Source: Branchiostoma floridae (taxonomy: Eukaryota; Chordata; Leptocardii; Amphioxiformes; Branchiostomatidae). Taken from it: a stretch of DNA of 64,000 nucleotides. How positions within the stretch are numbered: the stretch's first letter is position 1; the number at the start of each line of letters is the position of its first letter. Made by a program: the position numbers and the translations under genes. Under the pieces are notes generated by a model. The model was not told the DNA's origin, searched no databases, and worked only from the letters and a program-made list of their open reading frames with translations. The stretch is from assembly GCF_000003815.2 (NCBI RefSeq), contig NC_049987.1, positions 8,759,100 through 8,823,099 of the forward strand, written 5' to 3'. Positions 18,364 through 54,700 of the stretch are shown here, one piece after another.

Positions 18364-18918
18364 GTAAAAGTTCAAAGTCCACCGATGTTTCACCTGTACC
18401 TGCTGTCCTTGCGTACGTCTGTGGGCAGACTTCAAACTTAAGGGCTGGGGGACCGGAGGGCTTACACTTGATTCACGTTTCTTCATATCTACGCCAATCT
18501 GAACTGTAGGTATAGTAGCTGCCGTCAAGATAAAACTTTATGTTGGGGGTGGGGGGCAGTAGGTATACAGTACTTCCGCATGTTCCGGTATAAGTTAAGC
18601 GTAATAGTAATATTATATTGGACTGACGTGGTTTGAAGTGCCCTACAACAATACTAGTGAACCCTATTAACTTCAAAAGATTCACACCAACATATGTTAC
18701 ATTACACATTGACCACCACTCAAAGTCGATTCTATATTAGCGGCATAACTACAGTAATTTTAGTATTAAAAAGACAAAACTTTCTGGATTACTCAAGGAG
18801 GTTAAACCTCATATAACCGCCTTGGGATTGCTTGACTTAACACAGTTAACGTTATGTATAACATGTTGGCATGCAACTTATCTTCTTCTTTACTCCTACG
18901 TTACAGCTGAGCACCACA

Positions 18919-20550
18919 ATGGCACCACTACGGCTACCAGTTTCACTGGGCCATCTCCGACAGTACCTCACTCTCACCAACAATGGGTGTCTGCACAGAA
19001 CTGTAGCATCTTACTCCAGGGTACATGCAAAACACCCAATTGCTTACCAGCCGTCCTTGGTGCAGAGCAGAAGGTTTTGTCTTCAGTCCAGATCCCTGCA
19101 GAAGGAAGAACTAGAGCTGACCAGTGTACGGTACAATGTACAGAGGGGAAACTTTGCAAGAATAAGCAGCGAAGATGTGGCCATGTTTGAGAAGCTCTTG
19201 CCTGGCAGGGTGATTGCGGATCCTGAGGAGTTGGTGGGATACAACACAGACTGGCTCCGCATGTGTCGTGGCAACAGCAGGCTGCTTCTCAGGCCCAAGA
19301 CAACAGAAGAGGTATCAGAGATCATGAAATACTGCAGCTCCCGTAACCTTGCAGTGATGCCACAGGGAGGGAACACGGGCCTTGTCGGTGGCAGTGTGCC
19401 GGTGTTTGACGAGATCATCATCTCCACGTCTCTTATGAACAAAATCATCAGTGTGGATGAGATATCTGGTACGCTGGTGTGCCAGGCAGGCTGTGTTCTA
19501 GAGGCACTCAGCACACACCTGTCTGATGTCGGACTGATGATGCCTCTGGACCTGGGAGCCAAGGGAAGCTGCCAGATTGGTGGGAATGTCTCCACCAACG
19601 CAGGGGGTCTGAGGCTGATGCGGTACGGCTCGCTCCACGGAAGTGTGCTCGGGCTGGAGGTGGTCCAAGCAGACGGTACTATCCTGGACTGTCTGTCTAC
19701 CCTTAGAAAGGACAACACTGGTTATGATCTGAAGCAGTTATTCATAGGGTCGGAGGGCACCCTTGGTATTGTCACAGCTGTCTCAATCCTGTGTCCCAGG
19801 AAGCCACAGTCTATTAACCTGGCTATTCTCGGTGTCAGCAATTTTCAAAATTGCTTGAGGTCGCTGAAGGAGGCCAAAGGAATGCTAGGAGAAATCCTGT
19901 CAGCATTTGAGTTCATGGACAGCTCTTGTATGGACTTGGCTAGAAGTAACTTGAACCTAACCAACCCTATCAGTGACAAGCCATTCTATGTACTGATTGA
20001 GACAGCTGGATCCAACGGTACCCATGATGAAGAGAAGCTGAACCTTTTCTTAGAGAAGGTTCTGGGAGAAGGTATTGTGGAGGATGGCACTGTAGCAACA
20101 GACAGCACAAAAATTCAGTCCATCTGGTCTATCCGTGAGCGGCTAGCAGAGGCATTACTCCACGACGGTTATGTGTACAAGTACGACATCTCTCTCCCCC
20201 TGGCTAACTTCTATGATCTTGTAGTGGACATGAGGGAGAGAGTGGATGACCTGGCCACCAGAGTGGTAGGGTATGGTCATCTCGGTGATGGGAACTTGCA
20301 CCTGAACGTCACAAGCCCTACATACGATCATGAACTTCTTGACAAGATTGAGCCGTTCATTTACGAATGGACATCGCGGTACAATGGTAGTATCAGTGCA
20401 GAGCATGGACTGGGATTCAAGAAGAAAGACTTCATCCATTTCAGTAAGACCCAGAAGGCTGTAGAGCTCATGCAGCAGATCAAGGACTTAATGGATCCGA
20501 AGGGCATCCTAAACCCATACAAAATGCTGCCTGATAAGTATGGGGACTGA
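18919..20550 (+). CDS. D2HGDH: D-2-hydroxyglutarate dehydrogenase, mitochondrial
   Basis: FAD flavoprotein that oxidises D-2-hydroxyglutarate to 2-oxoglutarate in the mitochondrion, passing electrons to ETF. The 543-residue reading frame has an N-terminal presequence-like region (about 1-45, rich in Arg/Ser/Leu). The PCMH-type FAD domain contains [11 protein letters not shown] (near residue 147) and [10 protein letters not shown]. The C-terminal substrate domain has [14 protein letters not shown] with metal-ligand candidates His454 and His461, then SAEHGLG with Glu495/His496. Length is close to vertebrate orthologues (about 520). The frame is open back to 18871, but the ATG at 18919 is preferred because it follows a pyrimidine tract and TTACAG acceptor (to 18906) and sits in context CACAATGG. 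The coding region has no intron, unusual beside its intron-rich neighbours; a retrogene origin is possible. It is convergent with CRYZL1. Confidence 0.95.
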
Positions 20551-33719: not shown

Positions 33720-36700
33720 ATGGCGCAAGTGGGAGGAGGATTCGGAGGTAGGAACCCCTCATAAGACTCATATTGTTTAGGTAGAAACCCCTAATTTACA
33801 GGTAGGAACCACTTATAATTTTGTAACCCATTATAGCTATGATCTAGTATTATTTTATCGGTCTGCTGAGTGGAGTGATTATGTAAACTCATGAGTCCCA
33901 TCATATCAACAGGGGCTCTTAAGGCTAGTCTTTGCTAGCATGATCTCTTGGAAATCAATTCAAATTATGTTGGTATCCTTGCTCTCTATTTAATACATGT
34001 AATAGATTTCAATTAAGTCTGATAGGCCGTTATGTAATAGGCAAGTGACTGTTGGTACCATAGACAATTTTGTACAAAAATTACTTCCATTGATGTGCTG
34101 ATTGCCATTTGTTTGACATTTGTTTCTCACCCAGGCCAAGGCCAGTGGGCCATCACAGTGGAGGAGAGGGCCAAGCATGATGCACAGTTCTATGGGCTCA
34201 AACCTGTCAATGGTTTCATCACAGGTCTGTTTTCTGTCTGTTTTACTCTCTGTACATCTTCTCTCTGTAGCATAAAAGTAAGGTGCAGTTTCAATGTAAT
34301 ATAGTGTAATTCACTTTGTCTTCTCGATACCAAACTTTCACGGTCTGAGAAAATTTAACTTGTTTTTAGAACTAAATGTTCACGGTGGCAGCAGATGGGA
34401 GTAAAAAAATTCAGTGCTAATATTTTTATTGATCATGATAAGTTCAAGTTGCAGTCATCACCGTGGAAACCATGAACATTGAAAAAATCAGGAATTACAG
34501 TATGCATGTTCAGCAGTGTGTGAATTGATGATTTTATGCCACAGTTTCAAGGGGTAATGGCATTCACACAGTCTTAATAGGGTGTCTCCTATTTATCTAT
34601 TATTAGATTGTATTTTGTGAGCTACTAAAGTGTGGTTGATAACTTTTCATTGCACAGGTGGTCAAGCCAAGGATTTCTTCTTGCAGTCCCAGCTTCCACC
34701 ACCGGTGTTGGCCCAGATATGGTCAGTCTTTTTTTTTTGTTCCATCAGCTTCCTCTTAAGGCCTAGGTCACATTTATAAACCGGGCCCCGGCCGGGATGT
34801 TTGCGGAAACGAAAAAGAAAAGTGTTTATCAAGGAATATACACAAATTATGCTTATGAATATTTTCTTTACGTTCTGTGTCTTTCGCTGCCTTTTATATG
34901 ATATTTTTCGTTTCCGAAGGCTACCCGGGCGGGCCCCGAGAAGGGAATTGTGACCTAAGCCTAAGCAACATCATTGAGTTTCTGTAGTAGTAGCTGCAAA
35001 AAGTACAACCCAATTTTTTTCACTCCTCCTATATACCTAACATTTTTGTAATCATAATCTTTGTGATTTCTAATTCTCAGGAGCCTAGCAGATATGAACC
35101 AGGATGGCCGGATGGACAAGCACGAATTCTCCATTGCCATGAAACTCATCCAGATGAAGTTGAAAGGTTTTGAACTCCCCAAAGTTCTCCCCGCCAGCTT
35201 GAAAGGACCCCCCACCCCAGTCATGGGATCTTTCCCATCCCCAGGTAGGAGACAATGTTTCTTTGAACAAAAAGAGGACTATCAAGTATCATTGATGGTA
35301 TTTTCTCTACCCACATTCTTTGGGCATTGCCTTAGTGATGACATCTTTTTCTGTTTGTTTTATGTCATATTTGTTTTCAGGCACAATAGATATTGCCAGA
35401 TGTTCCAGACTTCTCTAAAACCTTCAGTTTTTCTGTTGTTTTTTTTTAAATATTTCTGAGCATGTATTTCATCAGGTATTATTTCCCTATCTATTTTGTG
35501 TGTGTGGTCCAGCCATGAGCATACCCAGCTCTCAGCCAGTGATTGCCTCAGTCTCCCAGGGCATGGTGGGATATGGCACGCTGCCACCCCCTGTGGCCAA
35601 TGGTGGCATGGGCATGATGAGGTCAATGACCCCTGGTCCAACCATGAGTAAGTCTTTTATTTTCTGTTCTGAAGACACTTTTGCTTTTTTCTGACTTTTT
35701 GTTCTTGACTGTTACTCTTTCTTAAAGGCTATCTTACAATATCAAAGGATGGCCCAGGTCATTATCCATATATTGTATTATAATGAACTGTATTATGATA
35801 TAACATTCAGATGTTACCATTTATGATATAAGATACTTGCGTCTTTCAGAATAAAATGTATGTCTACCAACATTCTATTGATAATTAGAAATAGTGTTCT
35901 TTACTAGATTACTGTTTGAAACTACCTGCAGGCTTTAAAATTCATTTTTTGGGCAATGGTGCACCTAACCTTAAAGTTAGGTGCACATCATAAATTAAAG
36001 TGGAATGTCAACATAATTAAAAACATAACCGCCTCCTTTCAAAGCTTCAATGTAAATCTACAGCTAATTTAAAAATCTTAAACAAGGACATATTATAGAG
36101 GATATATATTTGTCATGTTTTGAAATGTCAACAATATGCTGTATATTGTGAATAGGACTTTTACATAGATTATGTATTGTAGCACTACACAAATATTTTT
36201 TGTATACCAGTGCTACAAGAGTTATCAATCATCTCCAGATTTAGGTGCATGTACACCCAGTATTTCAAAGCCTGTACCTGATACACCCTATAACCTGCCC
36301 AAGAAGACCACTCAGCGGACCAATACAATCTGGCCTATGTGGACAGGTGGTCACCATAGACAGGGTTCTTTAAAGTTGATGCTTGTGTAAAGATTATCGG
36401 AGGAACCACCAGAAAGTGGTCACATTGGCCAGGTGGTCCTTGTGCAGGGATGGTCACTTGAAAAGGTTTGACTGCACATTTCAGAAACAAGTTTCTTACT
36501 TATCATGGAATCTCATCTGTGTTGGTAGCAATCATAGTACAATACTAAACTTTCTTTCTTCCAACACAAAAGTACGCACGGATCAAACGTTCTGAAGTGA
36601 TTGGTCATCAGTATTGATGAAGAAGGCGACAGTGGTCGTTGACAATTTGATCCGTGTGAACTTTTGTTTTGGAAGAAAGTTAAGCATTGTACTAAGTTTC

Positions 36701-39700
36701 TTACTCTCTGTTAATGTTTAATCAGGTGGAAGCCAGACTCTTCCCAAGTCAGCTATGCCTCTCCAGCGCTCTTCATCGTTTGGCTCGCAGGAGTTATCCA
36801 CGTCGCCAACCCGCGCACGGGCTGGATCTCTCACTGCGGACTGGGCCATACCGACCCAGTCCAAACTCAAGTACAACCAATTCTTCAACAGCCACGACAG
36901 GTCTAGAACAGGCTTTATAACAGGTACCACATTGTGTGTGATAGACTCATGCTGAACATACATGTACTGTAACAGTTGTACTTGGACAAAAACTTGTCTC
37001 AACTTCAGCCAGGGTTAAGCATTGAAATTCAGTAATTTATATTGTGTAGTTTGGATGTTTCATACCTTTTTACTCTGTTCCGTTCTTATTCTAGGTGCAC
37101 AGGCCAAGAATATACTTCTACAGACTGGTCTACCACAGGGAGCACTAGCACAAATTTGGTAAGGATTTTCACATGTTTTGATGGATTGTCTTGCCTCCTC
37201 GAAGTATTTTTCTTGTGTTCATTTTCTAATATTAAACAAATTCTTGGAATCTTGTGCAGGCAATTATCAGATGTTGACAACGATGGAAAGCTGACACAGG
37301 AAGAGTTTGTCCTGGCCATGCACCTGACAGATGTCGCAAAGGCTGGCCCTCTGCCGGGAACACTGCCGCAGGAGCTCGTGCCCCCGTCGTACCGCCGCGT
37401 GCGCTCAGGAAGCCAGACAGGTAGGAAGGGTAGGTGACACAATGTTTCCTACAAACATTGTGGTGGCGAGGGAGAAGGGTATACTATCAGGGCATACTAG
37501 GAGTAGTGTTTCACTGTTGTAAGTGTTGTGGGTTGGTGGCTCAATAGACTGTAAGTCTCTCTGATACTGTTTCTCCTGTAATCCACAGAAAACATATGTA
37601 TCATATCAATGTAACATTGTATCTATCAGCATTTCTTTGACAAAAGCAAGTTGGTGGCTTGTGAATGTGAGAGAAAGTCTAGTTGGAAAAGTTTGAAACT
37701 TTCAGTTTTTTGTTAAAGTAAAACCAACTCCTGTATTTGTGTAAAGCATTGAATTTTTATCTGGTTGGTTGTAGATAATAACCATCAAAACAGTGCTGTT
37801 GATAGGTGAAAGTTGATAAGTTTCAATAGAAGCACAATCAGCAGATCTCATTCATACCATGGTTGTCGTTCTATTTCACTGCTCGTAGACGCCCAGTTTG
37901 CCTCGCTTGTGTCCCCGCGTGGGTGGGGTAGCCTGCGGTCCCCAGGTATGTGGGTGTGGCAGGGACACCCTGTAGGCATGCAGGTGGTGGAGGTAATAGG
38001 GTTGTGTGGCTTAAGGCAGATTAACTCTCATTACATACCCTGGAGTGTCTACGCAGGGATCATCTCAAAAATGTGAAGATATTTGCTTTTTTGATGATGA
38101 ACAGGGCTAGCTATCCCCAGGACCTATCCTTCTGTCCCAGGACAGAAATACTAGTATGCTTGTTGGGATTAATAGAAATCCTGACCTTCTTGACATTAGA
38201 TTAATCAAATTATATTTTTGTAAACTTAAAATAGCATATTCAACAAAGAAATAAAACTGAAGACAGCCCTCAGTTTAGATAAGAAACAGTAGATAACATT
38301 GATTGGGTAATATATAGATTATATATAGCAATGAATGCACTTGGATCCAAAATTATGCAAAGTATCCTTTCCTACTTATTTTCATCATTCCTGTTGCCTG
38401 GTAAATTTTGTTGCTGACATTTTGTTTCCCAATCCAAAATTTATCCAGTTGGCTCAAGCTTTAGCTTTTGAGATGGTCCTAATACAAGACAAACTTTTAA
38501 CTCTGTTGGTTTCCAGCATGACTTCTTTCTTACCATGGTATAACACAGCAATGTACCATCTGGAAGATATAACAATTACTCAAGGAACTGGACAGAATTG
38601 TAAAGAGTTTCTTGAGTAACTGTTATCTTGTATATCTTACCACTTGGATGTCTAACCTTCATCAACACAATGTACTGGCTGATTCTCTGTCCTATGCTTT
38701 GGTTGGTTCTGAAGAAAGTTGTGGGTACAAGGTGAATCAACACATCCACAGCCATGTCATCGTGTCCTAAGAAATGATGTTTAAGAAGAATTTACGTTTC
38801 TCCTCCTGTAGGTCCCACAGGAATGATGCAGCCCCCTGTGGGTATAGGTGTGGCCCAGCTCATCACACAGCCCAGTCTGGACGGGCAGTCAGGGGCAGGC
38901 AGTGAAGATGAAGCAGACAAGAAACAGATCCCTCCTGGTGAGCCAACTTCTCTATAGACATACCTTGAAAGTCCACCTGTGTTAGTAGAAATCATTTTGA
39001 AGGAATGTAGAAGTGTTATTAAAAACAGCATAATTGGACAAATTTTGGACTAAACAACTACAGTCTTTGTTAAGGAATTAGCAACCCATTGATTTAATGA
39101 CGGCATATTGCGCAATACGTGACTCAATGAGCAGTGGATCATGAGTTGTAGAAAGTTTATCCCCCCCCCTTTAGTTAAGGGATAGTTGTAACACCTTGAT
39201 GTAAATGGTTTCTCTCCAAATATTTGTAATGAAGGATCACAAAAGGTCCAACCCATGAAAAGTTAGTCCACTTACAGTTGAAACTTGGTATCAAGTACAG
39301 TTGATTCAGAGTAGGGCAGCTGTTGAATTGTGATGTGCATTCTGAATATTTATTCCTTTTTCTTTTTCTTTAAATGCACATTTACATGTATCTGGCAAAA
39401 TTTATCACAGGAAATATAAATATTGGTTTAACACAGGAGAGGGATAACAGTTGTGTGTTCTTGTTTTAGTGTCATATGAGGATAAGAAAAGAGAGAACTT
39501 TGAACTGGGCCAACAGATTTTGGAACAGAAAAGACAAGCACTCCTGGAGCAAGAAAGGAAGGAAAAGGTAAACATAAAGTAATCTGAATTATTGAACTTT
39601 TACAAGGGGCATCATGACACTTGCAATCACCATGAACTTACCTGGCGCTTTTTCATTAACAGGAAAGAAGAGTTGCAGAAGAAAGAGCAGAACACGAAAG

Positions 39701-42700
39701 AAGAGAGAGAGAAAGGTAAGGCAGGAAGGATACAATCAATCAAATCAATCAATCAACTAACTTTATTAATAATGAAAGCCCTTTGGAATTTTGCCACCTC
39801 TAAGATAGAAAAACCCTGGGTTTTCTAAGAGTGGTGCAAAATTGTATGATTATGGTCTGAGGATTGAGATTAGAGTAATCATTAGAGATTATAGATTTTG
39901 ATAGTTACAAAAACTTCAATGTACTTTTGCAGTGTCATTTGTGGGACAATGGAAAGTTGTTATGTCTGTCGTTGTGCAGAAGAGCCTCCTAGTGACCAGT
40001 GAGTTAATAGCAGCTTGTATACATAATTGAATCCTAACTGGAGAGTTAGATCTCTAACAGAAAGTCAATTTTTGTGCAGACTGGAGCAAGAGCGCAGAAG
40101 ACAGATGGAGATAGAAAAACAGCTGGCTAAGCAGAGAGAGATAGAGATGGAAAGAGAAGAGCAAAGGAGGAAAGCTGAAGAACAAAGAGAGGTCAGTAGG
40201 TGGCACTGTGACACTTGTCACATTGACACATGTCCTTGCCATCATACCAGCACATCTTGTGAATGTTAATTTTATGTATAAAACTTTCCCGTCTTTATGT
40301 ATGGGACTGCTACAGACTTGATAAGAGGAATATGAAATCCAATTCTAAAGAGAGTGATGCGTTTTCTGTTGTTAGATTAGAGCAGTTAGATTTCTCATTG
40401 TTAGACAAAGATGAGAGGATGTCTTCACTTAGTGCTAAGAAGATTTACCCATTTTGCAGGCGGCCAAACGTGAACTAGAGCGTCAGCGTCAGTTAGAGTT
40501 GGAGCGTCAGAAGAAGCAAGCTCTGGAGAACCAGCGGGTCAAGTTACAGGAGGAAGTGTGTAAGATCAAGGCACACAAGAACAAAGTGGTGTACGAGTGG
40601 CAGACTGTGGTTAGTATCTGCTTTCTAACCTGTCTGTTTTTACCTTTGCTGAGTACTGTGTTTATGGTAGAATTTGAATATATGTATGTATGTGTATATT
40701 TTTAGTTAAGCAGCATAAGTCAAGAAACTATGGATAGAACTTTTGTATTTGGTTGGGTCTCATCCTATTAAGGAATTGATTAGATTTGGGGCCCCTTTGC
40801 AGCTTTCCTTGGGACTACAGCAAAACTGCCGTTTTTGTATATCTTATGTTGAGTCTTGACAAGCCATGACCATGATATTTAGGTGGTAATAGGGATTGTA
40901 ACTCTTTTGATATTGTTTCAATGTCATCTTACTGATTGTGCTGCTTTACATTTAGCACAAATTGTGCATTCTTATTGCAATTTCTATGCACAGTGTATAC
41001 ATTAGATGTTTTCCATGTCAACAAAGGCTTAAGATATTTTTGCACACAGACTGAAAAGAGAGACAGACTACAAAAGACTCTGGAGGAATCTAACCGAGGC
41101 ATCTCCGAGCACAAGGATGCCATCATGCAACTTAGCCAGACCCTCATCTCACGGACATCTAAGGTGGAAACAATGCAGCATGAACTGGAGGTCAGTCGTA
41201 TGTTTCTTACCCTTCATTTCTACATGTAAAGTCACAAAAAGATAGTATTACGTCAAAGCAAGATTACTGGCATTGTAAAGAGGTGCTGTTTTGCAACTGT
41301 AGCTGAAAATTCAATTTGTTTAAGTACAACTGAGGATTCAAAGGATGGATTGTATGGCAAAATTTTTGATGTTGATTTACTTTGGAAAATATGCCAGGTG
41401 TGTCTAAGAGACAATGAAATGTATTGATAAAGAAATGAATGTTCATTTTTCTCCCCAGGAATACAAGCAAAGACTAGAAGCCCTGAAGAGAGAAAAGGAA
41501 GACTTGAATAATAAATTGAGTGGGACCAAAGCGGGAACATCAAACATACGTGGGTCCATCATTACTTTTCTTCTTAAAATCATAGAGACTGATATTTGAA
41601 TTTGAGAGCCTGAGAAATCTTTGGCTTAAATGATTTGTGTTTGAAGCATTTGAAGAGTCCACAGTATTCATATTTATCACATAGTCAAGCCACTCATTGT
41701 GTCAAGTCCACAATATTTTCTTTCATAATTTCCTCCTATGACAAGTTGTTTATTTATTTTATTTGTTTGCTTGTTTAGTGGACTCCCAGGCCCAGGTGAG
41801 GTTCAGCTACAACAACAAGCAGGTGCTGCTACAGAAAGAACGTACAGAATGGGATAAACTGGAAGCTGAGCTTACGGAAAAGACGAAAGAACTGGAACAG
41901 ACTCAAGGACTTCTTAAGGTAAATTCTGATTGTGACTGCTAACAGAAATGTTTAAAAAAACTTAATTATATTTTTCTGTTCAAGTTAAAGTTAACACTCA
42001 AGTGGTGCCAAACTTGTGAGAGTGCCAAAACATTTGTCACAAGTTTCATGTAACCTGAATGAAATAGACTTATTGTTTTTTTCTTTCTGTGTGTGTTTCC
42101 TGATATTTTTGTGGCCAGCGTAACTTCAGAAAGTATTATGATGAAATTAGGTGTTGCGAACACAAAGTTAAAGGTCAAGTTTGGGCCCCCTGGTGTGTGA
42201 TTGTGGTGTTTTTGCACCATCAGCCTAGTATGTGTATGTGCATTCCCACACAGCTAGTACATGTACATGTATGATTGTTTAAATGCCACTATCAAGCTGT
42301 TTTGTACAGTTGTGCTATGAAACTGTATTATACATTATTTTAGTTACTGTATCAATCATCTACAACACTCAAGTGGTGCCAAACTTGTGAGAGTGCCAAA
42401 ACATTTGTCACAAGTTTCATGTAACCTGAATGAAATAGACTTATTGTTTTTTCTTTCTGTGTGTGTTTCCTGATATTTTTGTGGCCAGCGTAACTTCAGA
42501 AAGTATTATGATGAAATTAGGTGTTGCGAACACAAAGTTAAAGGTCAAGTTTGGGCCCCCTAGTGTGTGATTGTGGTGTTTTCGCACCATCAGCCTAGTA
42601 TGTGTATGTGCATTCCCACACAGCTAGTACATGTACATGTATGATTGTTTAAATGCCGCTATCAAACTGTTTTGTACAGTTGTGATATGAAACTATATTA

Positions 42701-45700
42701 TACATTATTTTAGTTACTGTATCAATCATCTACAATACAAGGTCATACAAGTTCCAATGCTTTTTTCCCAGCAATTAAAAGACGGAATGGGAACAACAAA
42801 TCGAGAGATCCAGAGACTGCAGATGAAGGGTCAGCAGTACAACGTGGAGGCGGCAGCACGAGCACACCGGGAGGAGGAGGAGAAGAAGAAGATGGAGGAG
42901 GTAGAACGGGCAAAACGTGCCGCAGAGGAGATCCAGAGACTACGGGACCAAGAATCCAAGACGTATGTATATTTTTTAACTTAGAAGCAGGGCTTGACAT
43001 ACTTTTTTCTGCATACCTGCACTGGTGCAGGTAACATTGAAAATTACCTGCACCAGAAAAATTTTACTTGCACCACTCTGAATTTAGGAGGTATGCATCA
43101 TGCTAAAATTGTTCAGGAACCAATTTGCTATTTTTTTAAATACTGTATATTAGGTAGTTAATAACAGCTGATAACAATCTATATACACCTACATTATAGA
43201 ACATTTATGTACAAAACCCAGTGCAGATTAGATGCAGGTACATGTAGACATCAGAAATACCTGCACAGCTCCAATGTTACCTGAACTAATCTGCATATGC
43301 AGGAGGTATTTCGAGCCCTGAGCAGGATAATGTGATGTCATGTACATGTAAGCAGGTTCATGGTTTAGATTGTGCCTGTTTAGCAAGATGCTGTGGTAGT
43401 ATGTCAAAGGTGAAGGCCCTTAAGTCGTAAAACACCTCCTGTCTTGACCACCCTATGTCCCGACTTGTTTGTTTATGTCTCAAGGGCCTCCACCATTACA
43501 CATTACCAACATTGCACCTTCCTGTGCATACTTTTGTTTGGCTCTGTTCTTGTGATATTCCAAAACATCTCCAGCTCACAACTTGTGATGTTTAAACTAA
43601 ATATAACAGTTTACATCAACAGTTTAATGTTCTAAGTAAGGGAAAACCATTTCCATATCTTAACTTTACAATTATGAAACTACTTGAAAACATTTATGAT
43701 AGACGTCGATGTAGGTTAGACATCCAGGTAATAAGATACGCCAAAAATAGTTACTCAAGCAACTGGATATGGTTTTGAAACGGTCAGACGTTTCAGAACC
43801 ATATCCAGTTGCTTGAGTAACTATTTTTGGCGTGCCATTTATGATAGAGCTGTAGACAGCCACAATCATGCTCCAGTTTAGCCATTTGTGCAGTCTATGC
43901 AAAGTTGTGATCCTTGAATTCAACTGTCAGACTTTCACATGGAATGTCACCATTTCATTTGTCTTATCTAATTCTATCCCCAGGAAAACTCCGCCTCCCC
44001 GGCCTGCTGCGCCACCCAAACCAGCCGCCCCCGCGGCCCCGCCAAAGAGACCACCTGCTCCAAAAATCGAGACAGAGTGGCCCGCTGACCACGACCCTTT
44101 CGCCAACATGGCTGACCAGACTGACCCATTCGCCAACGGTATTTTGAACTTTCAGTTACTGTATTCAGTTACAGTATTTAGGAGATACGTTTCAAGTCTT
44201 ACCATCTTTGGTCAACCTTGGCTTGTTTACAAAACCCTGCACAGGCCTATCCTAAACATGAACCCATGGCTACACAGCTGACTCTCTTCCAGGTTCAAAC
44301 CATCCTCTAAGCTGAATGATACCTTACCCGTTACCCAGCTCTTAAACCACCACATCCTATCCCTAACCTCTCCTTTCTTTTACATGTAGTCAACATTGAT
44401 TTTGATTTGCGTAGCTGATAGTGTAGAGTATGATTATCTCAGTCAGAGGAAATAGCCTTATTTACAAGTCATTCTTATAATTCTATTTGAGCATGCCAGC
44501 AGTCTTCAGTATAATCAGTTCTCTCAGTAGAGAAGGTTTTCAGAACTTTTTCCTTAGTACTTATACAGTCAAACCTGCCCAAGACGACCACTTGGGGGAC
44601 CGGGCAAAAGCGGTCGATTTGGACAGGTTGTCGGTTAGAAGAGTATCGACTCAAAACATGCCCGATGCATAGTTTAAATGGTTTCCGTTGTGTTTAATGG
44701 CAAATAGCAAGCACACCCACATTCATCCGCCGCCATCTTTATTTTGAACATAACATCGTAATGGTAGTCAAATCCGACACATACTAGCCGAATTTGGCAC
44801 CAAATCAATGACACCTCAAGATTTGAAAATAACGCGGTCGTTATGGGCAGGGATTTGGTTCCAATTTTTGGCGGTCGCCGTCACGTTGGCCAGGTGGTCT
44901 TTGTGAAGAAGTCATTTAATGCTTACGTGAATGGGGAAAATTTTCGGGAGCGAGAAAAAGCGGTCGTAATGGCCAGGTGATCGCTAAGAAGAGTTGGTCG
45001 CTTGGGCAGGTTTGACTGTACATGGAACTTGTTTTGCATGACCTATAATGTAAGAGAATGAGTTGTCTTGCTTTTGTTTAACTCATCTAAAATCAATTTA
45101 GACTGAAAGTGAATTTAGTACAGTGTATAATGCATGCAGGCTAGCCATAGCTGTTATTTGTAGTGTAGTTGTGTATTCTTGTGTTGTCTCTTCCCCCAGA
45201 TAAAGATGCCTTTGCCGAAGACCCATTCAAAAATACAGAAGACCCTTTCAAAACTGCCGAAGACCCTTTTCAAAGTACCACAACTCCAGAGGATCCGTTT
45301 AAAACGTCTGAGGCAGATGATCCATTCAAAACAGCCGAAGCAGATGATCCGTTTAAATCCACCCAGGCGCCAGTAGAAAGTAATAACCGTTCTCCACTAA
45401 TCCTCATCAGAGTCTGAATGCTAACAGGAGACAGGACAGAGGAAGTAATATCAAAAGGAGGCTTTTCCTGTCACTGATTGACAAGAAATTTTCTCAGGGA
45501 TTTAAGTCAGCAGCATTTGAAATTAGAAAGAACCTTATGATTGCTCAGTAGTAGTTTACAAGGATATTGCAATGTATTTGCAAGTTCACAGCACATGTAT
45601 AGGCCTTAATGATATGAATTTCAAGGCATTCTTTATCTTAGCTTGTGCTTCATACACATGCCTGTCAGGTTTGAAGTGCACGGTTTAAAAATAAGGTTGC

Positions 45701-48700
45701 TCATTTTTACTTAGCTTTGCTCTGTAAGCTGTGCTTCGCAAGAAATAACACCACCAAGAAAATGGTGTGTTTTACTTACAATTTTGCTGATAGAGTACTT
45801 TTGACTGAACTTCCTCTGTCCATCTAAGACTTCATCTTAATATTCAACTTATACATCTAATTTTCTGCAGATTCTGAGCATTAAGTCTTTGCGGCAGTTT
45901 TCAATTGGCAATCATAGCCTGAGATTTTCAGTTAATTGTCATTAGCATTTGAGCATGATTTTGCGTTGCATGTTGTCAGTATTAACTGCCTTAGTGCATG
46001 TGATTTGCCTATGATAGTGATTGCATTGCATTTACAGATGGTGATGACTTCTTTGCGCAAGCATTCAAATCCCAAATGAATGCTTTTCAATCAGCGGCAA
46101 GCTTGCAGAAGAAACCAGTAGAAAGTAATCTTATTTTCCTTTGCATTTTGTTGACTTGTCTTTTTGGTTGCATGGAACTGAGTTTGTTTGCATGATTGTT
46201 TTTGTTTTTAGATTTATTTTCTATATATGTATACAGTATTGCAATGAGTAAGGCACAAATGCGCTCAATATAACAAAAGGTGGTTTCGATTTGGCCACCT
46301 TCAAATTTATACAAAAAATGTACAACTAACAGTGCACACACATTGTATCATCATGTTCATCTACTCATAATTATGTAGAAGCCTAACTAATACTGTGATG
46401 TTGTACATGTAAGTGAATGTACATGTATAGTGTATACTTTACTGGAATTTTGATTAGGTTTAGATGTGTGCATATACAGGCCTGTCCAAAAAGCACAATT
46501 AACCAATGACAAGAATATTCAATTTTACATGGCTTAGTCCTCATTGAAAATAGTTAAAAGCATCATTGACTTTAAAAAGGCCTTACACCAGTTGGTTCAT
46601 TCCTTGCATGGGTACTCACTCTTTCATGTAAAATATGTATCCTTGCTTGTTGAATTTGCTAATAGTAAAGGGTATGAAAGCAATGTATTGGGAATGATTT
46701 GGGTTTTTAAAAAAAGCTTTCATTAACAAATGTGACATGAAATGATATTGCTTGACAGTTTTCTTTACAAGCGTGAACATGGTGATACCCATTCGTAACA
46801 CACTAACTCCTGCATGGTACCTCTCTTTCAGAAAATTCAGATTTCTTTGCCACTGATGCTTTTGCAGGTGGCTTTGATGCTTTCCAACCAACAAGTATTA
46901 CCCCAGAGCCTGCTGCCAAAAGTAAATATCTTACTTCTCTTTATATAACACTAATTATCTACTGTGTGATAAGTAATACATACCCTACTTATACTGTGTA
47001 GTTAATCATACTTCAGGTTTACTATATGGCTCTTTGATTGAAAGAATAACATGTTACAAATACATGCATTACAAATACATGCATCTAGTTCAAATGTATC
47101 AATAGCATAGATTTGGAATACTATGGCATCATTATTCATTATGATACTACATGTGTATTGGGAAGAATATGTCCTTGAGCATACAATTGAAAATGTGTGA
47201 AAAAAATATAACTGTTGTTATGTATCTCCACATTGAGAGCCAATAAGTGATGTTTATTGTACCCATTGTAATTATAATGTTTGTACTTTTCAGTTTCCCA
47301 AGTTTTATGTTCCTCTGACTTTTGTTCCTATCTTGTTCTCCCTGTGTTTTGTAGCAGACAACGAGGAGTTGTCTATGGAGCCTTTGAGAATAGTGGAACC
47401 AATAGACAATATTCCCTCTTCAGTAGAGCAGCCTCCAGAAAGTAATTTCCCTTTTCTTTTATCACATAAATCTTTGCCTACTTGTACAATGTCTTGTCTT
47501 CTTTCCTTTTTTCCTTCACTTGTTTGAAATTTCATCACGAGTCTAACTTTTCCAGGGTATAAGGTTTAGATGGTTGAAGGTGACCATATCCCAGTGTTTA
47601 TGTATGCAATGCTTACATTGTTTTTTCTTCACAGTGCCATAAAGCTTGCCCAAGCTTACAATTTAGTTCATTCTCTATTCTTGCTGCTTTTAAATTTTAC
47701 AATCATTATGATAGGACATTAACAGGGTAGTTTCTTAAGACCTTGGCCTGTTTTTAAGGGTCTATTGAAAAAATCTCTACGATTAATAAGGTACATTTTT
47801 GTTTATAGAAAACTTGCATATGAAGAGGCTTGTTAAAATTACCAAAATGGTTAAAACCTGTCACTGATTTGTAAAACTTTTATAAACCACTTTTTTATTC
47901 TAAATGACAAAGTTGTAGTGACTTCTTTTCTAAATTCAGCAAATAATAGAAACTTTGACTTCTGCTTGTATTTTTCTCTACATCAGAAAATGGCAGGGTT
48001 TCCAAATCATTGATAGTCGAATTCTGTAAAAACCTGCAAGAAAAAAGAGCATTTCATATTCAAGAAATAGCAGATTAAAAACATCCTAAAGGCTAAGAAG
48101 AATTTTTTTAAGCAGCAGCAAGAAGAAGGGTAAATTGATAACCTGGTGTATTTACTGTTTCACTCACAGTGGGTCTGGAAATGGAATCAGTCACTCATCC
48201 TGCTCTGAACTTTGGAGGTGTGGGGCCTTGTACTTCTCTTGGGCTGGCTGACTGGCCCCAGAAATGGGGCCTTTTGAGCCCCTTTGCATGGCTTGATTAA
48301 CCACGCACAATTCTACCTCTGCTCTGTGCAAACCATGATTTTCTGAGTTTAATACTGGTGATAGCACTAATTCATGAATGAGTGGTGATGATCTGACAAT
48401 CTTTTGCTCCCAGGACCCTTCTTTGTGTTGTCCTTTTGATTCATCTTGCTAACACACTTAGACCTGCTTGGTGATGCATTCAATCTAATTGATAACTTTT
48501 GAAATACAGTAGAGTAAAACAAAAGATGCTTGTCGAATATGAAATACAATTTGGAACAAAATAGTAGGACATTATAGTTTGTCCAAATGGCATGGTGTGG
48601 CAGCTAACCAGAAGCAATGATGTAATGATTCCACTTTAACCTTCATATACCCCACTAATCTGTGCTGCAGTGGTGAATGATTAAGGCTTGTACCTTGAGA

Positions 48701-51700
48701 CGCAACTTTTGGATGACTGTGAGTCTGATGGTGTCGTCCTCAATCTTTTCCAGGTCCATTGTCGCCAAAGGAGGGGGGCGGGAAGCTGTTGCGGTACCAG
48801 GCTATCTATAACTTTGAGGCGAGGAATGATGATGAGATGTCACTACAACGTGGAGACATTGTCTTGGTAGTATATTTATCAATACTTGATACAATGAGGG
48901 AGGAGGGGGAGGAACTTTGAAGGTAGCTGACTGCCTACCATTGCATCTGTCACACAGCATGAAAATTGATTGACTGAGGAGTTTTGAGCTCTAAGTGACA
49001 TTTTAAGCATTGATAAACCTGGTGTTCTCGATCATCATGCAATTTTTAGGGGTTCACCAATGTTTCCAGATCACTGAGTGCTGTCAAATATGACAGGATA
49101 GATTTTTGGCAAAAAAAAATTTTCTGCCATGTTTGACATAGCTGTATGAAGGGAAATGTTGTCAGCATTATTGGATGAAGCAAACAGAATGTGTGATTTC
49201 CCGTTTCAGATCCCAGAAGTCCAGGAGGACGCAGAGCCCGGCTGGTTAGGTGGTGAGTGCAAAGGGCGGACTGGCTGGTTCCCAGCTAACTATGTGGAAA
49301 GACTCCCCTCTGAGGATGGTGATGTGGAGAGGCCACTCAGGTACTCTTATCAATGTATCCTTTCTTATCTTCTTCCATTCATATAAAAGAACACTCACTC
49401 TATACTCACTGTAATAACTTCAAGTTACATTTAGTTGTTTCAATTATTGTATTAGGCTAAGCTGCCTTTCTTATTTTGTAATTATATGATAAACTATTGC
49501 AATGGTAGTACACTAAAGTTTCATCACGGTAGGCCTTTTGTTTCTCTGTTTTGTATAGCTTCTTCAGTCAGTTGAAGACTAGAATGGTGGAAGGAGTGCT
49601 TTTGTATGGTATAGTGTGGGGTGTTCAGAAGTTTGTGTCATCTTAATTTTGAGCTATGAGCTAACACCTTTAGTACAGTAGCATCACTGTTGTCTTTGTG
49701 TGTGTCACAGCCGCATCTCTGAAGATGTGGCCGAAGTGGAACCAGAAGACACCTCCAACCAGATGACGAGTCTTGGTGTGTCCCAGCCTGAGGCAGAGGC
49801 ACCCTCACCAACCCCTGGGCAGGTAAGAGATCTTGAACTGCTCATTCGGAGTTGCTAACTGGTTACTGCAACCTACTGTTCAATCAAAATGTATACCAGT
49901 GTATTCATATCACAAAAAGGTTGATACAAACCTGATATCAGATTTTTTGGATTTTTCTGGGATGTGTCATCCTGTAATGCCCTTCCATTTTGTTATCACA
50001 CTCTTACATGTACATATCATGGATGAACTTGCTCTCACTTGCGCATCGGATAATTTTGCTGTTGGATTCTGCCTTAGAGGAGCTGTTTCCTTTACCCTGG
50101 CCTTTGTACTATTGTAGTTTGATTCATGCAGGTCCTGAGACAGAGGAATATTAGTTTTCATTAATTTTATGTGTCCATTGTCCAGAAGATCACTGAGCAG
50201 AAAAAGTTTTGAGGTTTTGAGATTACATGATGTTATTCTCATGCTCACAACACCCAAGTCAAGATGCCCTTGATCATATATGTACAACTCCTTACAGGGA
50301 CAGGCTGCACCTGAGGGACTGCAGGCACAAGCCCTGTACCCCTGGAGAGCCAAGAAGGATAATCACCTCAGCTTCAACAAGAACGACATCATTACAATCA
50401 AGGAGCAAGCAGAAATGTGGTGGTCAGGAGAGCTGGATGGCAAGGTACACATGTGACATCATCGTTCAAGAAAAAAAAAGTATAAATCCAAGTTCTACAA
50501 CCATTTATGACAACCAAACTAGTCATTGCGGCGTCTTTTCTACCCCCTAGCATGTTTCTTTTCTATATGTCAGCACTTACGTTGCTATTACTACATGCAA
50601 ATGAATGAGATTTAAAAAAGATTGAAACCTTTAACCCACATTCTTTGCATGAAGTGCTTGCATTAATATAGACTTTGCAGCTCATTGTATAGACGACTCA
50701 TTGAAACAAGTAGCAACTAGTTATAGTTACACAGTACATTATTTTGTAACTATAAGTAAGTTTGTATCATGTCTCAGTACCTTTTGTTGTATTTCATGAC
50801 TTAAATGTATGTTTCAGGTGGGCTGGTTCCCAAAGTCCTATGTCAAGCTCATCTCTGCCCCTGCAAAGAAAGCTAGGTAAGATCATGATATTGTAGACTT
50901 CGATATTTGCATGTTTTATAAGAGCTCTAAAGAAGAGACCCCTACCACTTGTCATTATTACTGCAAGCTCCTTTCTGTAGTTGCTTGAAAGAGTAAAGTG
51001 TTGCATAAAAGTCGTATAGTCTCTGGTGTTTTTCTTTTTGGTAAGGAATTCCATCTTCACATCATTGATCTTTGCGGTAACTTTTAATCAGGCAGCTGAT
51101 GTTACTTTAAATGTCTTTTTTTCTGTATGAATAGCCCTGGTTCACAAGCATCCACCCCGCTGGGACAGGCCCCGACCCCTCCGCCGCAGGAGGCCAAACC
51201 TACAGCACAACCAGCAGGAACAGGTGGGGACAATTAACAACTTAACTGTCGCAGACATTGAACTGTCTCAGACATTGAAAAGTCCCACAAGTGTAATATG
51301 CCAACCAGTAAGGCTGCTGTTTGTATCAGCACATTTACAATTTGTAATCACAGTCATTATAGGTAATAGTACGATTTTTATGCAGTAAAATTTTCAAGCA
51401 GACCAACCGCTGACAAGGATCTAAGACAGCATTTTCCTTAAGAAGACAGCTGATTTTTGCAGGACATGATATGAACAACAGTACTACAATGTATCCTATC
51501 AAATGCTGTCAGTTTCTGATAGTATGACAATGGCAAAGTGGACTTGTATAGTGAATGTACTGTAAGTAATAAAATGATTTTGGTCTTGCCTTCCTAGAAT
51601 GTGTTGCGTTGTACACATACACATCAGCGGAGCCTGGAGACCTGACCTTCATGGTGGGTGAAGTCATCCTGGTCACCAAGCAGGAGGGAGACTGGTGGGA

Positions 51701-54700
51701 GGGGAGCGTAGGGGACCGGTCAGGCATCTTTCCTGCAAACTATGTTAGGTTGAAGGAGGAGCAAGACATACCTACAATCACGGTAGGTTTCTGACGGAGT
51801 TCCTGTATTGGCCAACATGCAGAGGCCATGTGTAGTGCATAGTTGGAAAAAAATGCAAAGGGAACTCATTGTGATATTGGTTTCAGTCCCTTGCAGGGCT
51901 CTCTATATTTTAGTTATAACAATTATCTTCCAGGTCACATATCTGCCACCCTGGAAAAAATAACATATTTAAAGAGATCCTCATTGCAGTTAATGTCCCC
52001 AACTCCAGCATGTCTAATCTGTACAATAGTACCTGGGGAGTGTTTCACTAGAGATTTCCCTAACACACCTTTTTTTCAGATACATGTATGAGTAGCTCGA
52101 ATAAATGTTAATCAAAAGTACATTTTGTATATTATTCAAAGTGCTGTCATCTTCTACAACACTTTGAATTTTGCAGAGTTTTTGGAAAAATGTTTTTCTT
52201 CATTTTACATTCTTGTGGTTCCTCACAGATAACCCTCGCACTGACAGATGAGGTATATAATTATATTGCTGGTATTCCCACTCTGATTATGATAAAACTT
52301 ACAAACAAGACAGAGGTGCAATCATCATGAAGGAATCATCTCCACAGTATGATAATTTAGTTGGCACTGAACAATGAGGAATCTGAAAATTTGAAGTGGT
52401 GCTCAATCAATGTTGTTTTTGGTGCAAGTTGTAGGACTGGAAGGAGTTTTTCTGAGTTTCTCAAATGTGAATTATCTTTGTTTTATTCATATACATGCCA
52501 TGTAGTTTTAGTTTGAGTTTCTTTCACTTATTTACCTTACACATCATTACACAGAAGTTACCGTTACAGTCAACTTTGTTAGTACTACACATTGTGAAAT
52601 AATATCTACTCTAATTTGTCTGTGAATTAAACAGCCTTCAGGGTGCTTAAGAGGTGAACTTTGTCATTGATAACGACTCTTTCTAACCCTTTCCCTATCC
52701 ATGAATACATGTACATATAGTGTAGAATTGTTATAACTTGAACTTTGTTTTAGACTAGCTGTGCTTGGTGTCAATGTTGTTTCAAGATGTAACAACTCTC
52801 TAGACATCTCTCTGGTGTTTGTTAACCCCTCTACTTCCCTTTCCACTGCTTGTTCTCAGACTTCTGGTGATGGGCAAAAGGACTTAGCCCAGGACATAGC
52901 ACAGGACATAGCACTGGACACAATGGCTACTGAGGTTCGCTACTTTCCCTGCTTTTTCTACCTACTAACATAAACAAATTTATTCTGCAACTTATCAATG
53001 AAAACATTTCAGCCTTGCAAACAGTCAGCTGTAGAGCTGAATTTGAAATCAAACATTTCAATGCAGCAACATGGTTTTAGATGGTAACAAAAATGGAAAA
53101 AAGGTCTGAAGACAATTTTTGTTTGTATTATAAAAAAAGGCCTAAGTATTAGCAGCTGCATGTATCTACATCATTCTAGATTTGAGTTAGGAAAAGGAAG
53201 GAAATTTGGTAGTCATGAAAACCAGTGATTCATGATTGTTACTGAACCTGTACACCAGAAACATAATACAATGATGTCATCTTTACGTTTGCTCCTGGTC
53301 ATTTTCAGGATGAATGGGAGAAATTGAGAGAAATGGAGGAGATGGGTGTACCTTTCGAGGTACATATTGTCAAAAATTGGTTGTAACAAATTTAACTTGG
53401 ATAAAATCTCACCACTATTGTCAGTAGTCTTTCACTTTCTTTGTAGAATGTAGTGTTCTAACACCTATTTGCAATGTATGATAGGGGCATTGAGTACTAA
53501 CTATACATTTTGTACATTAGTAGTACTTAGAGTCAACAGATAATTGTCTTCCATAAGTATTCTGCTTGGAATCTATCTTGTTAAAATCTGTATATAACAT
53601 GTATGAGAACAACTAAGCTCTTACTAATAGGAATCCGATGTAGAATCTTGGTGATTTACTTTTCCTGAAGCTGTGCTTTATTACAGTCTTCTCTGAGCTT
53701 TTAGGATGTAGAATCATGGTGATCTAATTTTCGAATTTCCTAAAGGTGTGCTTTATTTAACCCCAGACTTCCCTTCCAGCTCATTAACATGGTTATGTGT
53801 TGTTTCTCTTCTTCCATGTGTATGTATCAACTTAGGAGGTGACTCAGCAGCAGCCTCCACCAAAGCAACCCATGGAAGACAATGTAACCATTCATCCTCT
53901 TTCTTAGACTGTGTCTCTTTCTTAGACTGTGTCTAAAGCTAAGGGCACAAGCCGCCGTACGTGGAATTTGTCCGTACGTTTTTTTGGGAGAGGCCACGTC
54001 CGCCACGTATTTCTGAAAATGTTCAGGCTGTACAGGGCAGGCACGTCGCCCGTACTGGCACATACGAGGGGCGAATCCGCAGCCCGATGGCACACAAAGT
54101 TTTGCCTGCACGTAAAGTTCTATGGTGTGTCTGCGTGCTCCCAAATCCGTCGGATTCCCTACGAGTTTGTACAAAGGTGGTACTTACCACTTACGGATCC
54201 CAAAAGATTTCCCACGTTTTGGCACGTAGACAGCAGTATTTGTACGTACGGCGGGTTGTTCCCTTAGCTTTAGGGGTTGTGTACCTACATAATAAGCTGT
54301 GAAATCTATACAGTCACTTAAATTACATCTCTGGAGCAAAAGAGGAAATATCAAATTCATGTGTATCACAAGTTTATATTTTGCAAGAAGAGATTTTGCA
54401 CACAATTTGACAAATCTGTATTAGGTACACCACCACTTAACAGTCAAGTTATATAGCATTAGAACTCTAGATCTTAGCATCTTTCCTTTTATTTGTAACA
54501 TAGTGCAGTATCATCAGAAATAATGGCTTCACACATTCTATTCATTTCACTTCACTTCACTCCATTGTCTAAGCACCTCATCTTATGCATACTGCTGTAC
54601 TATCTTTTGTCATATTTTAAGTAAGTATATATATATTTTACCGCAACTAATAAAATTTGACTTACTAAGAGAAGAATAATTATACCATCAAGGTAATAAG

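Follow-up and report, generated by a model that had tools for sequence, protein, structure and literature searches.

Does the intersectin gene of the lancelet Branchiostoma floridae carry an Eps15-like array of DPF tripeptides, and if so, which endocytic partner would read it? The question arises from a 64,000-nucleotide (nt) stretch of contig C9 (NC_049987.1 of assembly GCF_000003815.2; C9:8759100-8823099), hereafter the window, in which an initial annotation had placed such an array between the coiled coil and the first SH3 domain (SH3A) of an intersectin. The gene is an intersectin, and with fairly good confidence we read its exons 18-21 as a probable multivalent, low-affinity docking array for the alpha appendages of AP-2, judging from motif content and spacing. 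Taken as a whole, the initial annotation is partly supported. We retained its exon numbers because our model, in which exon 18 is the 17th exon, starts after the missing first coding exon; its limits for the array, 43984-46921, run from the first base of exon 18 to the last base of exon 21 (modelled exons 17 and 20).

Exon 18 (43984-44138; plus strand, as are all intersectin exons given here) encodes a Pro-rich block followed by DPF 1 and 2, and exon 19 (45200-45379, 180 nt, phase 1-1) encodes DPF 3 to 8 in 21-nt and 27-nt tandem units. The eight tripeptides, at 44093, 44123, 45220, 45241, 45262, 45292, 45319, and 45346, share one open frame, and the annotated count of eight in these two exons holds as 2 + 6. 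Exons 20 (46038-46124, 87 nt, phase 1-1) and 21 (46832-46921, 90 nt, phase 1-1) are similar to each other, the former reading DDFFAQAF...NAF and the latter containing a DFF/FDAF stretch, with DFF at 46046 and 46840, respectively; these are the Phe-rich acidic motifs that had been described there. Five [NDSQ]AF motifs are spread across exons 19-21, and exon 22 (47358-47441, 84 nt, phase 1-1) forms a Phe-free spacer preceding SH3A. The gene model confirms the position of the array, within the 205-residue linker that joins the coiled coil to SH3A (17.1% Pro, 9.8% Asp, 8.8% Glu, 8.8% Phe, and no Tyr). The eight DPF are not a matter of chance, because 100,000 shuffles of this linker produced 0-4 DPF and never more. 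All six frames of the window together contain 12 DPF, eight of which belong to the array, and outside the array the 1136-residue model contains no DP[FW], FxDxF, WVxF, FxFx[FL], NPF, or WxxF/W. The sole PDB match of the array was Conglutin-7, at chance level (E 0.3).

The expected partner is present in the same genome. The platform of the lancelet alpha-adaptin matches PDB entry 1b9k, which we take to be the mouse protein, at 3.6e-69 (103 of 170 residues identical), and it keeps all six of the residues that we assume, with their numbering, to represent the binding pocket (F837, W840, R905, E907, R916, and R920). DPF and DPW motifs are low-affinity ligands of the AP-2 alpha-appendage platform (PMC5694535), and the linker offers multiple DPF in a stretch whose composition points to disorder. 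Docking of AP-2 by the intersectin array is a well-supported prediction from this ligand type and the kept pocket residues. In the mechanism that we propose, the acidic, multivalent, and probably disordered tail between the coiled coil and SH3A would present each DPF as a weak ligand of the platform, with the DFF/FDAF exons as putative accessory Phe sites; eight DPF multiplied by coiled-coil oligomers would yield avidity, and avidity may keep intersectin on AP-2 clusters early in coated-pit formation. Eps15 strengthens its AP-2 binding through avidity with free spacing (PMC4921775), and because the same logic would apply, eight DPF on a coiled-coil intersectin should hold AP-2 clusters.

How the array grew can be seen in part within exon 19, where 2.7 copies of a 21-nt unit and 2.6 copies of a 27-nt unit form two tandem arrays. 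The expansion that the initial annotation had considered is visible in these units, which do not date it. Such growth could have been neutral, a matter of tandem repeats in a disordered linker with no function attached to the number of DPF, and we consider this quite improbable. The tandem arrays themselves would agree with it, as would the apparent mutual copying of exons 20 and 21, whose similarity score was reached by 16 of 5000 protein shuffles and 7 of 2000 DNA shuffles (the lowest shuffle count, and the only one to stand out, among the 10 exon pairs in exons 18-22). A third feature on this side is the low GC content at third codon positions (GC3) of exons 19-22 (0.34, 0.39, 0.24, and 0.44; z -3.0, -2.4, -3.1, and -1.5), given that just 2 of 24 other intersectin exons fall below z -2; low GC3 would also be expected if exons 19-22 had been acquired later, were used alternatively, or were under weaker codon selection. 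However, two DPF lie in exon 18, beyond the tandem units, the order of Pro-rich block, DPF, and DFF matches that of Eps15 (see below), and the repeat copies differ chiefly at silent sites. Over seven codons of six repeat copies, all picked for holding DPF, the proportion of differences was 0.84 at silent sites (pS) vs. 0.16 at other sites (pN), and two adjacent 9-codon units carry five silent differences in 5.7 silent sites vs. one change in 21.3 other sites. Because the copies diverged far more at silent sites, the DPF motif looks old and under constraint.

Several observations weigh against a functional AP-2 array. The choice of copies biases the silent-site test, and the contrast is smaller outside DPF (pS 0.60 vs. 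pN 0.28), which is the fair pair because DPF is invariant by that choice. The model frame has the best codon use of the three frames in all five of exons 18-22, with weak scores for exon 20 (0.02) and exon 21 (-0.15, winning by 0.01). Exons 19-22 are all phase 1-1, have lengths divisible by three, and could be skipped frame-neutrally. Finally, the motif scan ends at SH3C, and further AP-2 sites may lie beyond it.

The introns around these exons have features of their own. The one directly before exon 18 contains a near-perfect hairpin (43738-43833), whose two 45-nt arms are 98% complementary and flank a 6-nt spacer, and the one before exon 19 contains an insertion (44564-45020) with 20-nt perfect inverted ends, TACAGTCAAACCTGCCCAAG, and 417 nt between them, which resembles a small DNA-transposon-like element. 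A possible 48-nt frame-neutral exon with a weak donor was seen by eye before SH3A (48170-48217); a stricter scan did not find it.

AP-2 is not the only candidate reader of DPF, as the genome also contains a muHD gene (C15, 7.3e-12). An array serving chiefly as a ligand of the FCHo/SGIP muHD, like the proximal DPF block of Eps15, strikes us as improbable. The muHD of human FCHO1 does bind intersectin 1, and deletion of TNLDFFQSDPF, a DFF plus a DPF, from EPS15 weakens muHD binding (PMC4921775); DFF occurs in exons 20-21, and DPF-X4-DPF-X4-DPF in exon 19 comes close to the allowed muHD spacing range. However, strong muHD sites need DPF linkers of 2-3 residues, with a 5-residue linker being weak (PMC4921775, PMC4731787), whereas the linkers of intersectin are, in order, 7, 9, 4, 4, 7, 6, and 6 residues long. 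Linkers of 4-9 residues therefore favor a single-DPF reading, by AP-2, over the triple-DPF reading of the FCHo/SGIP muHD. Adjacent linkers of 2 and 3 residues are found instead in the lancelet Eps15.

We located this Eps15 on C4 by an EH search of the 513,431,437-base genome and modelled it as two halves, leaving out the stretch between them. It has three EH stretches (8.5e-63), a coiled coil, and 15 DPF separated by linkers of 3, 19, 3, 16, 2, 3, 48, 10, 10, 10, 5, 6, 13, and 4 residues, including a DPF-X2-DPF-X3-DPF triple (DPFGDDPFSGKDPF) that the intersectin array lacks. Pfam reported no UIM in its tail at E up to 1, and a UIM-like end is visible by eye. With an Eps15 in the same genome, the intersectin array is therefore no stand-in for a lost one. 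Spacing, muHD gene, and alpha-adaptin pocket thus suggest that the two proteins divide the DPF code, Eps15 seemingly addressing muHD and AP-2 and intersectin AP-2.

The label "Eps15-like" proved apt: in both lancelet proteins EH stretches and a coiled coil come first and are followed by a Pro-rich block, a DPF array, and DFFA, in this order, and the AP-2 alpha appendage is the expected partner of both. Unlike Eps15, intersectin has two EH stretches rather than three, eight DPF rather than 15, and no X2-X3 triple, and its array is internal, partly spread across small 1-1 exons and followed by SH3 domains (the model ends at SH3C). The intersectin stretch and the 432-nt DPF exon of Eps15 align in one order with a score of 190, which was reached by none of 3000 shuffles with DPF positions held and by 7 of 3000 with prolines held too (4 of 3000 when intersectin was shuffled). 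Without the Pro-rich block the score was 133 (reached by 5 to 58 of 3000), and a score of 92 resulted when the three smaller Eps15 DPF exons were used instead, with 88 to 164 of 3000 shuffles reaching it. The DFF elements on their own were not significantly similar, their scores being reached by 1071, 2397, and 1822 of 5000 shuffles. A relationship between the intersectin array and the Eps15 tail is suggested by these scores, with a modest excess when prolines and DPF are fixed; convergence on a shared endocytic grammar would look alike, and Eps15 was the sole DPF-rich protein in the comparison.

Exon shuffling could also have produced such likeness, had intersectin recently received a copy of an Eps15 DPF exon; we regard this as very unlikely. 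A 42-nt Eps15 exon (C4:9497911-9497952), reading DYNDPFKAEDPFKT, is phase 1-1 like intersectin exon 19 and has the 5' junction AAY G|AT in common with it. The phase match is weak evidence, however, because 8 of the 28 intersectin exons are 1-1, and the DNA similarity stays within that of synonymous recodings (reached by 1355 of 3000, and for the large Eps15 exon by 591 and 987 of 1000). There is therefore no sign of recent copying, and a recent DNA transfer from Eps15 is unsupported.

Two further EH-related observations came from the same search. Between its coiled coil and first DPF, the lancelet Eps15 contains SSSWDTG (L007:2129-2257; C4:9497129-9497257). Drosophila Dap160 has a similar stretch in the same place, possibly a trace of a shared tail. 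A third EH-type locus (L011; C9:19110001-19120000), which we presume could be REPS, has an SDPFAGAPP stretch in a Pro/Gln-rich frame.

Human ITSN1 provides a contrast in position. Its AP-2 motifs are of the Trp/Phe type, as the initial annotation also had it. Their location in the SH3A-SH3B linker, the other part of that claim, agrees with published work, in which this linker is an AP-2 site (PMC3645719, PMC8044098) and AP-2 binding there inhibits the binding of synaptojanin 1 (PMC3645719). The predicted AP-2 docking stretch of the lancelet likewise adjoins SH3A; unlike the human one it lies N-terminal of that domain and is of the DPF type. The lancelet SH3A-SH3B linker (49210-50324, comprising the end of 49210-49340, 49711-49822, and the start of 50298-50444; exons 24-25) was scanned for DP[FW], FxDxF, WVxF, FxFx[FL], and WxxF/W and has none of them, as had been annotated. 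A hidden AP-2 cassette in its two introns was rejected as well: a scan with crude splice rules gave 2 and 0 frame-keeping candidates, none with a motif. A predicted AP-2 site on the opposite side of SH3A makes the coupling between AP-2 and synaptojanin 1 testable.

How old the array might be is a question for comparison. According to one survey, which counts AP-2 motifs in the tails of sorting proteins, both Eps15 and intersectin descend from proteins of the EH-EH-coiled-coil type; "DPF" is absent from its main text (PMC4824007). We tentatively entertain, as a possible but doubtful scenario, that the Pro-rich/DPF/DFF tail predates the split of Eps15 and intersectin from an EH-coiled-coil ancestor, that the lancelet keeps it in the ancestral place, that vertebrate intersectins lost it and re-evolved AP-2 docking beyond SH3A, and that the muHD spacing code survived in Eps15 alone. 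A gain, relocation, or expansion of AP-2 docking in the lancelet lineage, the latter two proposed in the initial annotation, may account for the array instead. The invertebrate intersectins Drosophila Dap160 and C. elegans ITSN-1 are like the lancelet gene in having EH, coiled coil, and SH3. In Dap160, Trp-rich and DPY stretches occupy the region separating the coiled coil from SH3A and would favor an old site there. For ITSN-1, EH and SH3 are documented in the available text of a study that names DPFs for EHS-1 (Eps15) only (PMC3570524). A search for other animal intersectins with SH3B gave 14 pattern matches in viral_contigs and 89 in genome_contigs, none of which was confirmed, and a literature search mostly excluding full texts, and excluding all supplements, found no DPF array reported in any intersectin. 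Intersectin and Eps15 are partner scaffolds in the FCHo-Eps15-intersectin complex that initiates coated pits; should intersectin itself bear an array of the Eps15 type, the two scaffolds would formerly have resembled each other more closely, and spacing would restrict the muHD code to Eps15.

The identity of the gene follows from its architecture. Our hand-built model (34135-51782) has 28 exons, all with AG before and GT after, and encodes 1136 residues in a single frame open across all of them. Seven exons encode EH1 and EH2 (34135-34224, 34658-34721, 35081-35244, 35513-35647, 36726-36923, 37095-37158, and 37260-37420), giving two EH stretches (6.7e-40) whose best PDB chain is Intersectin-1 (4.4e-40; EPS15, 1.6e-20). 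The coiled-coil exons (39470-42962) were recognized by K/E/R/Q-rich composition, open frame, and fitting phases, and three SH3 stretches follow in the same frame. SH3A, in two exons (48754-49340), matches Intersectin-1 chain 6h5t (4.2e-22). Within 50298-51782, the best PDB chain for SH3B is Intersectin-1 4iim (1.5e-28), and SH3C matches Intersectin 2 1uhf (7.7e-22); the top five among the 31 PDB chains listed for the SH3 region are all Intersectin-1 or -2. Pattern fragments of SH3D occur at 56.4 and 57.4 kb and SH3E at 58.3 kb. A scan of 57-64 kb gave no DH, PH, or C2 match, and the gene may extend beyond the window end. A mis-joining of neighboring Eps15 and intersectin genes was ruled out by the one GT-AG open frame leading from EH through coiled coil and array to SH3, and by the position of Eps15 on a different contig.

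Elsewhere in the window, a coiled-coil intron holds a recent-looking tandem duplication of ∼370 nt (41993-42738; copies 98-100% alike), and an open frame at 18862-19551 contains an FAD_binding_4 domain (2.4e-20) and presumably resembles D-2-hydroxyglutarate dehydrogenase.

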